DNA of 64,000 nucleotides from Brachypterus glaber (taxonomy: Eukaryota; Arthropoda; Insecta; Coleoptera; Kateretidae). The first letter of the stretch is position 1. Each line of letters begins with the position of its first letter. This document shows, piece after piece, positions 8,282 through 62,193 of the stretch. The notes under the pieces were generated by a model. The model was not told where the DNA came from and did no database searches. It was given only the letters and a program-made list of their open reading frames with translations. A program made the translations under genes and the position numbers. The stretch spans positions 2,749,816 to 2,813,815 of the forward strand of contig OY294052.1 in assembly GCA_958510825.1 (NCBI GenBank), written 5' to 3'.

Positions 8282-8939
8282 TTAAGGGGCCTTTCTACCT
8301 TTGTTTTTAAACTTTTGTTTATATAGAAAGAAAAAAGATATTATTGTGATGTTTTGTATGTATGTTTATTTATATTTAAAGAATACATTTTTTTTAGACT
8401 TTTAAAGTGCCAATTTTTGCCATAAAATGTTCTTGAAAAAAAAAACATCAAAAAACGATGGTCGCCATGATTCCGGCCGTTTGTAACGACTAAAAAAAAC
8501 GGGATATTTATCAATATTGAAGTCGCTATAGCCCTATCTAGAAGAACATTTTTTTGGCCAAAAAATAACAAATAGCGAAAATTTTTCTTGAAAATTATTT
8601 AATTTTTTTTGAAAAACGTCCGCCATTTTGTTATTTTTTGGCTAAAAAAAAAATTCTTCTAGACAGCGACTTTAGTACTGAATAATATTTCGTTTTTTTT
8701 TCAGTCGATCCAAACGGCCGGAATCATGGTGACCACAGTTTTTTAATGTTTTATTCAAAACAATTTAATGGTAAAAAAATGGCCTTAAAAAATCTAAAAA
8801 AAATAATTGTTTTCTTTAAATATATAATATATAAATAAACACACCTACAAAATTTTACAATGATATCATTTTTCTTTCTATAAAAAACATGTTTTAAAAC
8901 AAAATAATTTTAAAATTTGAATGTAGAAAGACCCCTCAA
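8282..8939. mobile_element. Foldback element F2, TTAA/GGGG ends
   Basis: Ends are TTAAGGGGCCTTTCTAC (8282) and GTAGAAAGACCCCTCAA (to 8939). Inner arms contain 'GATTCCGGCCGTTTG' and its complement near 8468 and 8718, and 'TCTAGAAGAA'/'TTCTTCTAGA'. The outer TTAA is TCAA on the right. A TTAA target would suggest piggyBac-type mobilisation, but that is inference from a four-base word. A half copy lies at 60724-60985. Confidence 0.75.
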
Positions 8940-17671: not shown

Positions 17672-18636
17672 CCAGTGAAAAGTATAAAATAAGAAGTAGT
17701 GATAAGTGTTCTTAAGTGTTATCTAAGTGATTTAGTGTGTTGTTAAATAAGTGTTTCTAAATAGTTTTTTGTTAAGCTTTGCACACTGAGATTTTAGTAA
17801 ACCCGGATTACATAACAATACATAAAATCATAGGTTATCTAACATATTCTTTTTATGTGAATCCTGTGTGAATTCATTTTCTCAGTGTACAAAATTTACA
17901 TACTAATTCAAATTGTCTAATTACACCGTCCTAAACTGTTTAGCCGATGTACTACACGCGCTGGGTGTTAACAGTATACATATTGACTTCACTTTGTTGG
18001 TTTGGATGTCCAGTTTGTTTAAATTTCAATATGTGTATGTCAGGCTGTCAATAGTCAACAAATCTGCGACCATTTGTGAGTAGATTTGTCACGTAAAGCA
18101 CGCAGCAGTGTTTGTTACGATAAACAAACCGTGGAGTAAATCCTTATTATTTCTTGATGCAAATTCTTCGGGAATATAGGCAATACTTTCAAAAGGAGCA
18201 ATAAAACAAAGTTTAATAATAACAAATAACATAATAATTCTTCTAGAGGGAAGTCTACGTTGACTCTGAGACTGTGTCATCGAGGAGAAGCGTTTAAGGT
18301 GAATTACTAAGATTTTGGGAATTTTTGAATTTTAAAGAATTTTGTGCATTTCGGCCCTCTTTGCATTTTGAACATGTAGTCCAAACGATTCTTTCCGTGT
18401 GAAGGATTCCAAACAATGTGATAAACTTAATTGACCGGTGTGTTGTGGAAGAGAGAAAGGTCCCAGAATGGTTCGAATGTGACGGAACAATGGCTGCAAT
18501 GGGTGCAAGTGTTCTTGCGTTACTTTCTCAACTTCATATCTCCAAATTTGAGTTTTTATAAGAATTCAGTTAACATGTACAGAAGTCATTAATTCAAAGA
18601 AGAAAAAATCGTTTTGTTGTTAAGAAAATATTAGTT
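17672..18636. other. No gene seen
   Basis: Sequence after the gap is somewhat less AT-rich (for example 18370-18540), but no frame is convincing. Confidence 0.45.
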
Positions 18637-18720: not shown

Positions 18721-20319
18721 CTACGACCTAACACCTACACATCCAAAAAAACGCAAAAATTATCTTAAAATTAGTTTGCCAATTTGAGGTTATGTGTGTG
18801 ACCATGTTTACTAATTTTCTGACAGCAGATATGTAAAATCAGCTGATTTCCACTTTCCAACCGTTGTTATAGGCAACGGGTGGGAAATTGGCACTAACTA
18901 CTAACTAGGTTGTAGGAAAAAGTTATTATAATGTGCATTCTGTTAAATACGACTCGTTAAGTATCGTGGTAATACTATACCGAATAATGAATGTTTTGTT
19001 CGATAAAAGGTGATAAAAATAGCGAAACGAGGAAGTCAGAAAGCGTAGGGTTTTGCAGAGTATTGTTTTAACGGTCCGTGGCAAGAACAAGTTTTTTCCT
19101 GAGAAGGCAAATGGTAATAACTCGAAACATGTTATAGCATTATGAACAATTTGAAGTCCCAACTAAAAATATTATGGATTAGAAGATTTCTGCCACTGCA
19201 AATGCAATTGCGCAAGTAAGCTAACAAGAAAATTATCTGAGTACTACATTTGGATTGCATGGATTTGTATTTTTGGCAAAATATTTATTTGTATATGAAA
19301 GGCTAATGCAAGCTTCATTATGTCCATATTTATATTTATTATTAGCAAAAAAAATAAAGATTCCTGCTTACTTCCAGTATTTAAACAAGTCCCAAGTTTC
19401 ATTTAAAATATTTTTTTTTCAGTACAACCTAATTTTATATACTAAAATAAATGTATACATTAATTAGGGTAATTAAAATTTTATTTTATTTATTAAGACT
19501 TGATACATTATACAGGGTTATTCAGAAATAGGGTCATTAAAAAAAACACATACAGGTCCATGTACAACCAACTATTTTGTGTCATTTTCGAGTTAAAAAG
19601 TGTTGATTATTTGTTTTGATTTTTTTCGAGGATATGAGTTAAATCTTAAACTGAAAGTGATTTTTTTATATTAATTATAATAAAACAATGATTGAGTGTT
19701 ACATCAGCTCTAAAATCACAAAAAGTAAATTGTTTTTCAACCGTGGTAAATTCGGCAACCTGGAAAGAGACTCGCTTTAAGCGAGATAGAAAATCTGGAA
19801 AGCGAGATAGAAAAGCAAGGTAACAAAAAAGTAACTCAGATCAGGGGATTTTTTTAAATAAATTTTTTGATTTTTTAAATTCTGATTTCACGCTGTTACA
19901 TTAAAGTGGTTTTCTTTCATTGAATGGAGTTTGGTTTCCTTTTTGCCTTTGAGGCACAAAATTAATTGAGTTATGTGGTTCCTAACCGAACAGATCGCGA
20001 ACACATATCAACACAATAAATTTCGGGCCAAATATTACCAAAATCTAATTACAAGCCGTTAACGAGGTGAAGCACGTTAACTCGCTATAAAGTTTCTCGG
20101 GGAAAAACCGAACGATAAACATAAAACTGTGCTGCGACACGGCTAATAATAAGTCATGCATTATCCTGGAAAAGGACAACCTAGTACAAGCAGAGAGTTT
20201 TATTATGGGATGTCCTACGTGAATAAGTCCCATCAAGTAATATTTTATTAAACTGGTAAATTTAATGATATCGGTTTTAATATTATAAATAATGTATGTG
20301 TGTAACTTTTTCGCTTATA
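18721..20319. other. No gene; one small hairpin and one solo terminus
   Basis: A hairpin at 18855-18889 pairs TTTCCAACCGTTG with CAACGGGTGGGAAA. Near 19513 'TACAGGGTTATTCAGAAATA' resembles the end of the foldback at 61309. Open frames are not convincing. Confidence 0.5.
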
Positions 20320-20334
20320 ACTAGTTGTATAAAG
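20320..20334. repeat. Target-site duplication, left (15 bp)
   Basis: ACTAGTTGTATAAAG, repeated without mismatch at 20871-20885. The size suits target-primed reverse transcription. Confidence 0.93.
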
Positions 20335-20376
20335 TTTATTATTCCATCAATCTATTTTCTAATCATCGTACAGAGT

Positions 20377-20429
20377 GATATTGGTACTGAAGAGGGCCAG
20401 CAGCCCGAAACTGTCAGTCTACCAATATC
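20377..20429 (+). ncRNA. Hammerhead ribozyme 1 (type I)
   Basis: All conserved hammerhead parts are in order: stem I 5' strand ending GATATTGGTA (to 20386), core CTGAAGA (20387-20393), stem II GGGC-CAGCA-GCCC (20394-20406), core GAAA (20407-20410), very short stem III CTGTCAG (20411-20417), then TC (20418-20419) and stem I 3' strand TACCAATATC. Predicted self-cleavage follows C20419. Stem I can extend to 52 perfect base pairs (20335-20386 with 20420-20471). The very short stem III is typical of mobile-element hammerheads, which often cleave as dimers. Confidence 0.93.
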
Positions 20430-20730
20430 ACTCTGTACGATGATTAGAAAATAGATTGATGGAATAATAAATTAATATTTTTATAATTTTGTTTAAAATT
20501 AAAAATTTCTGTCCTTACTAATTTTACGTCTAACCACCCGTTAGTGGTACTATGTGCTTGAGACACACAAGTCTTCAACTTGCTACCATTCAAAGTCTCC
20601 AGATTAGGAGAGGTATGAGTAGTTGTCTACATCTAGAAATAGATGGCGCACAAGTCTACATCAATCTAATGGCTATATTCCTTTTGCGAGTAAAGTCTAA
20701 AAACGTTTTCTTAATCAGCGTGCAGAGTTG

Positions 20731-20785
20731 ACTCTTGGTACTGAAGAGGGCCAGCAGCCCGAAACTGTCAGTCTACCAATATCAC
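20731..20785 (+). ncRNA. Hammerhead ribozyme 2 (type I)
   Basis: Core CTGAAGA (20741-20747), stem II GGGC-CAGCA-GCCC (20748-20760), GAAA (20761-20764), CTGTCAG (20765-20771) and TC (20772-20773) are identical to ribozyme 1. Predicted cleavage follows C20773. Stem I is natural and imperfect here: ...GACTCTTGGTA against TACCAATATCAC..., with pairing resuming at GCAGAGT/ACTCTGT. This imperfect stem is probably the ancestral state. Confidence 0.92.
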
Positions 20786-20870
20786 TCTGTACGATGATTA
20801 GAAAATAGATTGATGGAATAATAAATTAATATTTTTATAATTTTGTTTAAAATTAAAAATTTCTGTCCTT

Positions 20871-20885
20871 ACTAGTTGTATAAAG
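20871..20885. repeat. Target-site duplication, right (15 bp)
   Basis: Perfect copy of 20320-20334. Confidence 0.93.
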
Positions 20886-20961
20886 GTTTTTTTAACATTA
20901 TTTTGTTTAAAGAGAAGGTTAGAGGACTGAAACCGTTACGAAAAAAACCGTTACGAAAAAG

Positions 20962-21207
20962 TGGCTGGGATCGAGAAATCGTGAGGAAAATCCCAACAAA
21001 AATCGTGACAATTGTGACAAAATCGTGAGAAATCGTGAGGAAAATCTCGTGGAAAATCGTATAGAAAATCCCAACAAAAATCGTGACAATTGTGACAAAA
21101 TGGTGAGAAATCGTGAGGGAAATCCCAACAAAGATCGTGACAATTGTGAGGAAATCGTGAGAAATCGTGAAGAAAATCCCAACAAAAATCGTAACAATTG
21201 TGACAAA
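20962..21207. repeat. 54-bp minisatellite with multiple-of-three units
   Basis: Units begin TCCCAACAAAAATCGTGACA. Starts at 20991, 21069, 21123 and 21177 give periods of 78, 54 and 54 (78 is 54 plus 24). Because the period is a multiple of three, long frames stay open on both strands: 97 codons plus, and 98 and 131 codons minus. The plus frame repeats an 18-residue Asn/Arg-rich unit with 'NPNKNRDNC'. Openness on both strands points to a repeat artefact, not a protein. Confidence 0.85.
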
Positions 21208-21870
21208 AATTCATGGGTTTTGAGCCATAACACATTTCCAATGTCAACTTTAAATCTATGTAACGCTCGTATTGAGTTCTCGGCTGGGATCATTGTTGAT
21301 ATCGTAAGCGTCACATAGATTTAAAGTTCTCGGCTGGGATCATTGTTAAATGCGTTCTACTGTACAAGTAAAGCAAAACCGTGATAACATTAATATATAT
21401 ATATATATATATATATCGCTTACGATATCAACAAAATTCATTGAGTTCTCGGCTGGGACAATTGCTTTTATATGACGCAAAAGTGTCCCAAAAGTATGTG
21501 ATGCAAAAGTGTCCCAAAATTATGTGAAGATCCCAGCCGAGAACTTAAAATTTTATGTGACGCTTACGAAATTAAGAAACCCGTGTCTCGTAACTGGAGC
21601 CTTAAAACATATTAATGTTATCACGGTTTTGCTTTACTTTTACAGTAGAACATTTTTAACAATAGAATCTATAATTTATTTGAGGCGTATATATATATAT
21701 TTATTAATTTAATGTTCTAGGTGCGCCTGATAAGAACATTTTAATTTTATTTTCTGTTTTAGATTGTTTATCGATATAAATAATCATTGAGGCGAAATGG
21801 CTCAAATTAATAATGCTATAAATTTTTAACAATGATCCGATCCGAGAACTTTCATATATCATTATAGTTT
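21208..21870. mobile_element. Mosaic foldback element with TCTCGGCTGGGATC modules
   Basis: The module GTTCTCGGCTGGGATCATTG occurs near 21276 and 21330, degenerate near 21447, and inverted near 21527 and 21833. A longer inverted pair, 21342-21395 with 21613-21664 ('AAGCAAAACCGTGATAACAT'), brackets an (AT)n tract (21391-21416) and inverted 'GATATCGTAAGCGTCACAT' segments. The GGCTGGGATC word also starts the adjacent minisatellite, so the two may be one element resembling Drosophila FB in design. Confidence 0.65.
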
Positions 21871-22853: not shown

Positions 22854-23340
22854 AGCATTCTTAGATTTATATGTATTTAAACACTTTAGCAAATCGCAGC
22901 ATAAATAAAAAAGTAATAGAAAATTGTTGCAAATATAAATAAATATGATAACGGAGAACTCGATTTATGTTGGACCAATGTGATTTTCTAGTGAATGATA
23001 CAATGTTACTCACCTCTGAATTTTAAGACACTCACTGCCCAACGATCAGATTGCAATTAGAGTCTTCCAGATCAGTTTGCCATATAAATGGAAATGAAGC
23101 GCTCTATGTGTTTAATTATCACTAGAAAGGATGTTACAACATTTTTCATATACTCCGTGATCAAATATTTAGTTAAAAATAAAAACACTAGAGAGCTTCA
23201 TTTGCATTTATATGGCAAACTGATCTGGAAGACTCGGGTGGAAATCTGATCGTTAAGCAGTGAGTGTCTTAAAATGTAGAGGTGAGTAAAATTCACCTTT
23301 ATATTCTTCATTTTTGCTTAACCATATTTGATAATGACCC
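22850..23340 (-). mobile_element. Element X, minus-strand copy interrupted by a foldback
   Basis: 22850-23005 matches 55293-55455 ('GCAGCATAAATAAAAAAGTAA', 'ATGATAACGGAGAAC'). 23290-23340 carries the minus-strand frame end SLSNMVKQK-stop, with a synonymous AAG/AAA difference from 55166-55192. The foldback at 23006-23289 sits between the two parts, so it inserted into X. Confidence 0.65.
23006..23289. mobile_element. 284-bp foldback MITE (TTACTCACC ends)
   Basis: Left arm TTACTCACCTCTGAATTTTA and onward through 'ATCAGTTTGCCATATAAATG' is mirrored in the right arm ending GGTGAGTAA; arms are about 105 bp. The loop holds 'ATATACTCCGTGATCAAATA'. A copy lacking its right arm is at 55955-56140. No clear duplication flanks it. 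Confidence 0.82.
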
Positions 23341-25095: not shown

Positions 25096-25690
25096 TGCAA
25101 TACAATACAATACAATATAAGTGGGGTTGTGAGGTAAGATACTGCCTTTCAAAGCACTGCGACCAATGAGATCTATTGTGAATCCCCTTTACAAGTTAGC
25201 CCACATCAAACTTTAGGCTTCCAAAGAAGCCTAAGAGTTTTTTGGGGGCTACTTGGAATATATCTGCAAGTCTTGGGTATACCTGTTCTAGATACTGTAG
25301 CCTTGTGCGTGCAATGGCTTCGCAGAAGCACATAATGTGATCGGCCGTTTCTGGTGCTTTTGAGCAAAGACGGAATGTGTCGATTTCAGATTTTCCCATT
25401 TTTTTAAGATGAAATCTTAATGGGCAGTTTCCGGTTAACAGCCCTGTCTTTAGGTCCGTCTTGCTGAGATCGAGTATCTTTCTTGTTCGATCAGGTTCAT
25501 ATTTTATGAATATTTTGGCCTGTCTTAAGTTTTGGTCTTTCCAATATCAAGTTTTGATTTTGGTTTCCCATTCCTTAATTGCCTCTACCTGATGGCTTTT
25601 GTTAAAGCCACGGAAAGGTTGAGGGCCAATAAATTGAGTGCATGCTCCCTCTCTCTCAACATCCTCGTGTCCTGGCAATTTTGCGAGATT
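25096..25690 (-). pseudogene. 5'-truncated non-LTR retrotransposon (RNase H/C-terminal end)
   Basis: Minus-strand frame from about 25688 to the TAA at 25196-25198, about 164 codons, broken by one TGA at 25547-25549. It begins at the tail of an RNase H domain ('LPGHEDVEREGACTQF'), continues with 'RTRKILDLSKTDLKTGLLTG', and has the Cys/His-type end 'CSKAPETADHIMCFCEA' and 'RTRLQYL'. That order is typical of I/Jockey-group LINE polyproteins with RNase H; the exact clade is uncertain. The 3' UTR follows to a tandem TTGTA-type tail (about 25102-25121). The copy is dead on arrival: no reverse transcriptase or endonuclease is present. Confidence 0.85.
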
Positions 25691-30151: not shown

Positions 30152-30413
30152 TACCCTGAAAAAAAAAGGATTTCTTGAACCAAGGACACGTATCTTTCGA
30201 TATCTTTAAAGCCATATTCTCTTATTTAAAGGCTAGCATTCCTTGAACCAGTCAATGTCTTTGAATGAAGAGCACCGGTTTTGAATGAAGATCCGCGCTC
30301 TTCATTCGAGGACATTGTCTTTGGTTCAAAGAAATGAGCCTTGAAACAAGAGAATATAGATTTAAACATATCGAAAAACACGTGTCATTGGTTCAAGACA
30401 TTCTTTTTGTGTA
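30152..30413. mobile_element. Foldback MITE family K, copy 1
   Basis: TA-flanked. Left CCCTGAAAAAAAAAGGATTT, then 'CTTGAACCAAGGACACGTAT' and 'AAAGCCATATTCTCTTATTT'; the right half mirrors this down to TTTTTGTG-TA. The centre GAAGAGCACCGG / CCGCGCTCTTC is the hairpin tip. Copies: 43843-44077, 50822-50897, 52918-53149, 56182-56247, 56672-56808, 60289-60558. Confidence 0.85.
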
Positions 30414-41944: not shown

Positions 41945-42199
41945 GCCTTGACTTTGAGGCTCAAAGTTTGATATACGAAATAAGCAAAGATTAAATTTCC
42001 ATTTCTTAATCAACAAGTAGATTTTAATTTATGGTAAATATGTATATTTTCACACTGATTACCATAAGTTGACTTAATCATTCCTTATGTTAATTAAAAT
42101 GTCGGGAGTAATATTGCTTTTTAACCACTTTGACAAAATCTCATTAGCACTTTCCATTTATCGCAGGATATTTCCATGACATATACCTATGTAAGTAAA

Positions 42200-42625
42200 T
42201 AACACAGGTTTACAAAAAAAAAAGTCAGGACTATTTGACCGGACCATGGTATTCCTAGGTATTTTGGCGCCCTGAATCAGATCCCGGGGTCAGTTTTGCC
42301 CCATCACGTCAGGAAAACGAGATTTCAAGGTCATTTGGAGGTCAAAATGGTGATTTTTTGGGAGCGGCCCCGGGACAAGATCTCAACGTTCAGAAAGTAT
42401 TCAGGACCTACACAGTTACCCGTGAAGTTAACAGGTCGCTTGAGATATTGTCCCGGGGCCGCTCCCAAAAAATCACCATTCTGACCTCAAATGAACTTGA
42501 AATCTCGTTTTCCTGACGTGATGGGGCAAAACTGACCCCGGGATCTGATTCAGGGCGCCAAAATACCTAGGAATACCATGGCCCGGTCAAATAGTCCTGA
42601 CTTTTTTTTTTGTAGACCTGTGTAA
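42200..42625. mobile_element. 420-bp near-perfect foldback, TAA-flanked
   Basis: Arms 42203-42387 and 42440-42622 are inverted with about 97% identity by eye. They include TGGTATTCCTAGGTATTTTG, 'GATCCCGGGGTCAG' and 'GGGAGCGGCCCCGGGACAA'. The loop is about 52 bp. TAA occurs on both outer sides, compatible with a PIF/Harbinger-type 3-bp target (inference). The arms are much more GC-rich than the neighbourhood, and their near identity suggests a recent origin. A 62-codon frame crosses the left arm but is not conserved elsewhere here. Confidence 0.88.
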
Positions 42626-42715
42626 TTGTTACATTATATTGCCGTATATTAGAGGTCGGGCCATGGTATTTATTTACCAGGAACTGACGAAAAATTTAAG
42701 TTAAAACCAGCTGAA

Positions 42716-61308: not shown

Positions 61309-62193
61309 TATACAGAATAATTCAGAAATAAGCTACAAAATTTTAAGGAGTGTTTTTTTAACCTAAAACTTTCAAATATCTCGAATACTATGCATTTTAG
61401 AAAAAAAAATGTCGGATAAAATTTTTTTATTTTAATGATGGAAACAAAATGTATTTATTTTTACGGATATTTACGTTTTCAAGGTCATTTCAAGGTAAAC
61501 TTGTTTTTTTTTTTAAATACAAACATATATATTTTTCACTGTTATTTAATTTCCCTCAAAAAAATAAAAATCTTTTGTAAAAAACTTTTTTTGATCGGAC
61601 TTTAATTGCAGAGATAACACAGCCACACAAAATTAAAAAAGTTGCATCTCCGACGAACTCTACTAGTCAATTCCTCTGTATTTTGAGCCGCTGAATCCGA
61701 ATCTGAGGTCGGAATTTAAAATTTAACTTCCATTTTCAACATAACCTCAAAAAACATACTTTTCGCAATGATATGATATGTTTTTTAAGGTTATATTAAA
61801 AATGAGAGCTAACTGTTAAATTTCGACCTCAGATTCGGATTCAGAGGCTCAAAATACATAGGAATTGACTAGTCCGTCGGAAATGCAACGTTTTAAATTT
61901 TGTATGGCTGTGTTATATCTGCAACTAAAATTCCGATCAAAAAAAGTTTCTTACAAAATATTTTTATTTTTTTGAGGAGAATTATATAACAGTAAAAAAA
62001 TATATGCTTTCATTAAAAAAAAGAAAGTTGACCTTGAAATGACCTTGAAAACGTAAATATCCGTAAAAAATAAATACGCCATTTTGTTTCCCCCATTAAA
62101 ATAAATAATTTTGACCTTTTGACCTTTTTTTTTCTAAAATGCATAGTATTTGAGATATTTGAAAGTTTCAGGTTAAAAAAAACACCCGGTATA
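61309..62193. mobile_element. 881-bp complete palindromic foldback, TA-flanked
   Basis: TA-TACAGAATAATTC left, ACACCCGGTA-TA right. Arms of about 430 bp pair along their whole length, e.g. 'TATTTACGTTTTCAAGGTCA' with 'GACCTTGAAAACGTAAATAT', and 'CCGAATCTGAGGTCGGAATT' with its complement near 61835. The symmetry centre is near 61755 with almost no loop. No surviving frame. A long dsRNA would form if transcribed. Confidence 0.9.

Follow-up and report, generated by a model that had tools for sequence, protein, structure and literature searches.

The insertion and its surroundings

The window analysed here (the whole 64-kb stretch of DNA) carries a 536-bp insertion at 20335-20870, which lies between two copies of a target-site duplication, ACTAGTTGTATAAAG, at 20320-20334 on the left and 20871-20885 on the right. 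The duplication is perfect over its 15 bp, as an earlier note on this DNA had claimed, and is the sole pair of 15-mers 551 bp apart in the window. Its right copy begins with four bases (ACTA) that also continue the repeat unit of the element, possibly a primer/template match of 4 nt. Within the insertion, two identical hammerhead cores start at 20387 and 20741, confirming the 354-bp spacing given in the same note, and sit in a direct repeat (20381-20520 and 20735-20874, spacing 354) in which 140 of 140 bp are identical. The cuts predicted after 20419 and 20773, which agree with the core coordinates, delimit a 354-nt monomer on the forward strand (20420-20773; non-coding, 36% GC), and the element holds about 1.4 such units in tandem. 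No open reading frame (ORF) of at least 110 amino acids is found within the element, the longest open stretch in the tripled unit is 65 codons, and there is neither a poly-A nor a simple-repeat tail at 20870. The flanks are AT-rich at the insertion site, with 71% AT over 200 flanking bases. No second copy of the element is present in the 64-kb window, where only short AT-rich matches were obtained (best E 0.008), and the copy is judged to be recent from its identical repeats.

The window as a whole looks like an AT-rich eukaryotic genome, with a GC content of 26-36% in 2-kb steps, and is dense in dispersed repeats and apparent miniature inverted-repeat transposons. Long imperfect palindromes, 75-89% self-complementary over ~250-850 bp, occur at 61353-62181, 42198-42627, 8300-8903, 30163-30408 and 23002-23293. 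Imperfect tandem arrays at 20930-21208, with periods of 15, 54 and 78 and rich in AAATCGTGA and GACAATTGTGAC, begin 45 bp past the right duplication. A Pfam scan of 10 of the 146 open stretches of at least 60 codons gave no match at the family cut-off. Below the cut-off, 25199-25546 (reverse strand) resembles the C-terminal zinc finger of LINE reverse transcriptases (zf-RVT, E 0.006), a fragment for which the search for protein relatives returned one candidate and none at E 0.001; 18092-18331 (reverse strand) resembles a ubiquitin carboxyl-terminal hydrolase (UCH, E 0.015) and is possibly an exon or a pseudogene, while the neighbouring stretch 18335-18565 matched no Pfam family.

The inverted 5′ arm and the 3′ tail

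The insertion opens with a 52-nt inverted arm (20335-20386, reverse strand), which replaces the natural stem I 5′ strand. This arm is the exact reverse complement (52/52) of 20420-20471, the stretch immediately downstream of the first predicted cut, with 52 pairs running outward and 0 inward into the core. It has only TTGGTA in common with the natural stem I strand next to the core, and the switch from inverted to direct orientation thus falls within 20381-20386, at the cut or at most six bases from it. At the other end of the insertion, a partial unit continues for 97 nt beyond the second cut (20774-20870, forward strand), and its last 45 nt (20826-20870) constitute a tail that has no counterpart in the 5′ arm; the arm starts 52 nt past the cut, whereas the 3′ end lies 97 nt past it. 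The long strand, from 20870 back to 20381, measures 490 nt, or 1.38 laps of the 354-nt unit. Directly 3′ of its putative reverse transcription (RT) start, at unit position 97/98, folding predicts hairpins (20517-20580, forward strand), a candidate RT-recognition region by analogy to what is described in passages of PMC11167929. The arm and the tail, which the earlier note missed, are the most informative part of the element and, as far as sequence can tell, point to a Penelope-type insertion.

The hammerhead motifs

The two cores (20387-20419 and 20741-20773, forward strand) share the sequence CTGAAGA-GGGC-CAGCA-GCCC-GAAA-CTGTCAG-TC, which comprises CUGAAGA, stem II (GGGC/GCCC) with the loop CAGCA, GAAA, stem III and U16.1-C17. 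The catalytic core of hammerheads follows the consensus CUGANGA...GAAA...UH, and neither copy departs from it at any invariant base. Each copy can be drawn with three helices, of which stem I is open while stems II and III are closed; this is not the minimum-energy fold. Stem III has 3 bp and a 3-nt loop, and when formed between the two copies it becomes 8 bp plus a U-U mismatch. The complementary stem I strands that the earlier note had seen in each core do pair in both copies, but the two stems are not equivalent. In copy 2, the natural 5′ strand (20712-20740, forward strand) forms 6 bp, a 6x4-nt internal loop with 20780-20783 and then 16 bp with one mismatch, and this internal loop is accompanied by a 5-nt loop II. 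In copy 1, stem I is a perfect 52-bp helix without an internal loop because 20335-20386 is the exact inverted copy of 20420-20471.

A descriptor written after the site was seen (core, stem II of at least 3 bp, stem III of at least 3 bp and stem I of at least 4 bp) matched twice in the window and never in 200 dinucleotide shuffles of it, both strands included, the two matches being tandem copies and thus a single event. Rfam gave no match at the gathering score anywhere in the window. A permissive scan of 20250-20950 (701 bases) gave six matches, among which RAGATH-1-hammerhead (RF03152) fell on copy 1 only (23.7 bits, E 0.16) and was outranked by E-value by MIR171_1, a microRNA family on the opposite strand (E 0.078), which is probably a chance match; a 161-base scan of copy 2 gave RAGATH-1 at 21.3 bits (E 0.12) and Hammerhead_HH10 at 13.6 bits (E 2.8). 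RAGATH-1 is thus the best Rfam hammerhead model on both copies, and its core and stems align with them, but 21-24 bits against a cut-off of 56.3 bits makes neither copy a member by Rfam's rule. The earlier note had named a covariance score below threshold for both motifs as evidence against its own proposal, and this is the outcome that we obtained. We do not take it as decisive, since every invariant base of the catalytic core is present, and with scores this far under the cut-off the covariance models neither confirm nor exclude a hammerhead motif.

Searches of two other collections returned no exact copy of the core in viral contigs; a looser core pattern had no match in genome contigs and ten loci in viral contigs. 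In none of these ten was a tandem unit seen, the first 20 core nt occurring once per stretch when exact matches are counted. No covariance model was built from these loci, as they were picked with this element's own pattern and such a model would be circular. Loci L001, L006 and L007 (one sequence) and L002 and L008 (one sequence) carry single hammerheads with a GGGC/GCCC stem II, as here. The former group also carries the CTGAAGA core variant, and the A found at N7 in our element accordingly recurs in three of the ten matches, which represent a single sequence.

Folding and predicted activity

Folded as a circle, the monomer has a minimum free energy of -93.3 kcal/mol (z -5.3 against 100 shuffles), with 64% of its bases paired. 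In this predicted circle, the core CUGA pairs with the UCAG of stem III, with a probability of 0.96-0.999. Forcing the active monomer fold places it 6.3-9.5 kcal/mol above the minimum, varying with the stretch folded, and the paired (dimer) double hammerhead, which is nested and free of pseudoknots, costs 4.2 kcal/mol in three contexts, all of these being energies that leave out tertiary contacts. By a like method, seven distinct viral-contig hammerheads (the ten loci less three same-sequence repeats, with a stem III of 5-10 bp and picked by a pattern from this element) have active-fold costs of 0-4.2 kcal/mol. The folds suggest little activity for one ribozyme by itself and more for a pair, and copy 1, whose stem I internal loop is lost to the arm, may be the slower of the two. 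Dimer hammerhead action is described for axolotl retrozymes, and is reported for vertebrates rather than for most invertebrates (PMC7229834). On the minus strand, the region of copy 2 folds into a hairpin under DNA parameters (z -4.2), a structure that would make it easier for the first strand to snap back.

A model for the insertion and its alternatives

We propose that this single locus holds a copy of an animal-type non-LTR retrozyme that owes its insertion to the enzyme of a Penelope-like element (PLE), a member of a poorly understood group of retrotransposons, a reading that we hold with a little better than even confidence. The hammerheads would cut tandem transcripts, probably acting best when two of them join through their near-palindromic stem III, and ligation of the monomers would give circles, as in published retrozymes. 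A staggered cut of the target would leave two 3′ ends 15 bp apart, in keeping with the 15-bp duplication. The bottom-strand end would then prime internally at unit position 97 and copy 490 nt. A cleaved linear monomer would give only 97 nt instead of 1.38 laps, and the bottom-strand template was thus presumably a circle or an uncut multimer. The top strand carries a 52-nt antisense copy, whose match extends from unit position 52 to position 1, which is the hammerhead cut. Since the arm stops at the cut, where a circle would not force it to stop, it would stem either from a second priming on cleaved RNA or from the first strand snapping back on itself at stem I, each of which would produce the junction found here. 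We slightly prefer two-end priming, because it also explains why the arm starts where the tail begins. The two strands would finally have met through six complementary bases of stem I, TTGGTA/TACCAA, an overlap that is present in the sequence.

Several observations stand against insertion by a PLE enzyme or against parts of this scheme. First of all, the 15-bp duplication, the lack of an Rfam call and the fold costs (6.3-9.5 kcal/mol for the monomer and 4.2 kcal/mol for the dimer) all count against it. Second, according to passages of PMC11167929, the authors looked in vain for ends of RNA at the ribozyme cut and unprocessed RNA was the main substrate in vitro; neither finding favours cleaved RNA as the template of the arm. 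Third, the enzyme of that study, from an Anolis PLE, started at a non-homologous target, and the possible 4-nt primer/template match here thus counts against a PLE enzyme. Finally, the same enzyme prefers 5′-ATT-3′ in AT-rich DNA according to these passages, whereas ATT is absent at both inferred cut points of this insertion, which lowered our confidence slightly, from a position somewhat further above even. One weak test for a PLE protein, with one Penelope RT peptide, gave nothing significant in the window (18.9 bits, E 1.2), and in two collections not meant for animals, where the outcome carries little weight, the same peptide returned 27 pattern matches with no confirmed relative (viral contigs) and two weak matches of 33-35% identity in bacterial records (genome contigs).

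Mobilisation of the retrozyme by a LINE-type enzyme, with the arm derived from an ancestor, from template jumping or from twin-priming and with no special tie to PLEs, is a serious alternative, though in our view an unlikely one. PMC7229834 lists LINEs or PLEs as candidate mobilisers, 15-bp duplications in Nematostella repeats were likened to LINE mobilisation in passages of PMC4918200, and the sub-cut-off zf-RVT fragment at 25199-25546 is a LINE-like sequence within the window. The 3′ end, on the other hand, is neither A-rich nor a simple repeat, the combination of a one-sided tail with an inverted arm closely matches what is described for PLEs, and the arm ceases to be complementary at the ribozyme cut. 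We give distinctly less credence to hammerheads that are genuine by descent yet have very little or no activity, so that the locus would be a dead retrozyme or a fragment of a pLTR (the terminal repeat of PLEs) and would yield no circles. The missing call at the Rfam gathering score, the sequestration of the core CUGA by the stem III UCAG in the predicted circle, the height of the active monomer above the minimum and the loss of the stem I internal loop in copy 1 would all fit such an element; against it, neither copy has lost an invariant core base, the repeats are identical, the energies ignore tertiary contacts and the 4.2 kcal/mol of the dimer fold equals the top of the range for the seven viral-contig hammerheads, whose stem III is longer (5-10 bp). 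It is highly improbable that the locus is a DNA transposon of the hairpin type, or an artefact of assembly, with the motif present by chance: several long imperfect palindromes in the window do resemble miniature inverted-repeat transposons, but both inverted arms here lie on the 5′ side instead of bounding the element, which is flanked, beyond the arm, by the perfect 15-bp duplication and has no further match in the window except the short AT-rich stretches.

The Penelope-type ends of this retrozyme also suggest that the hammerhead may help to join cDNA strands. More specifically, the hammerhead could be part of the integration chemistry as well as an RNA processor: the RNA cut would set a 5′ end where synthesis of the top-strand cDNA stops by run-off, the final bases of this cDNA would be complementary to the other cDNA strand because they make up stem I, and stem I would serve as the joint that closes both strands, a proposal that we consider rather unlikely as it stands. 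Were it true, the stem I joint would explain why type I hammerheads are kept by both retrozymes and PLEs, as well as the palindromes at Penelope inverted junctions.

Comparison with known systems

By its sequence features, the element fits an animal-type non-LTR retrozyme. Such retrozymes are characterised by a type I motif, units of 170-400 nt, low GC, the absence of LTRs and duplications longer than 4 bp (PMC7229834), and the element shares with them the tandem type I hammerheads, a 354-nt unit within this range, low GC, a non-coding sequence, a long (15-bp) duplication and an RNA that is self-paired as a circle. The earlier description of a retrozyme-like element with a 354-nt monomer thus stands as regards these features; Rfam does not call the motif, and the self-pairing is somewhat below published values (64% here, against more than 70% for the examples in passages of PMC4918200). 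Our element differs from metazoan non-LTR retrozymes in its short stem III, which favours dimer action, and in its 5′ inverted half-arm ending at the cut and its one-sided 3′ tail, neither of which is mentioned in the main text of PMC7229834. In the literature searched, which consisted mostly of passages without supplements, so that an earlier description is possible, we found no account of an inverted arm on a retrozyme. Plant LTR retrozymes, as presented in passages of PMC4918200, likewise have a hammerhead-bounded non-coding unit that is thought to move via RNA circles, but theirs are type III hammerheads with LTRs and 4-bp duplications; an LTR retrozyme was set aside here, the duplication not being 4 bp and the motif being type I.

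Descent of retrozymes from PLEs, or dependence on them, has been proposed before: PLEs are named only as strong candidates for moving retrozymes in PMC7229834, and passages of PMC11722881 suggest that retrozymes may be reduced PLEs. According to passages of PMC7761336, the repeats of retrozymes share no conserved motif that would reveal their partner. A retrozyme with Penelope-type ends makes the question of the mobilising enzyme directly testable through a survey of ends in genomes rich in retrozymes.

The element lacks an ORF and any RT or GIY-YIG domain, in which it differs from PLEs, and with no RT it is not itself a PLE but at most a non-autonomous partner. It further differs in that its hammerhead is fuller, stem I of copy 2 carrying a loop, and in its 15-bp duplication, against 8-10 bp or none in the PLEs described in passages of PMC3846280. 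The word hammerhead does not occur in the main text of that paper. The Anolis PLE of PMC11167929 carries a hammerhead in its repeat, as here. The likeness to PLEs lies in the ends. First of all, passages of PMC3846280 describe PLEs with two direct pLTRs and an adjacent inverted pLTR, which has a 15-bp overlap with the direct one and is 37 bp shorter, together with an optional 31-bp tail; palindromes at the inverted junction led its authors to deduce self-priming. Second, passages of PMC11167929 report that a purified PLE enzyme cuts and extends both strands in vitro, with RT starting inside the RNA at two sites, although the strands were alike in start site; the tail is the stretch of 30-40 bp between the two RT start sites, slightly shorter than the 45 nt found here, where the tail is at the 3′ end only. 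Third, the main RT start of that PLE is at 111-118 in the ORF and its ribozyme cut at 26, which by subtraction places the start 85-92 nt past the cut, against 97 nt for the 3′ end here, a post hoc comparison on one copy. Finally, as far as these passages go, the PLEs of Adineta vaga and Anolis share with our element the direct repeats with an inverted partial 5′ copy, the one-sided tail, the target duplication and an internal RT start at a like distance past the cut.
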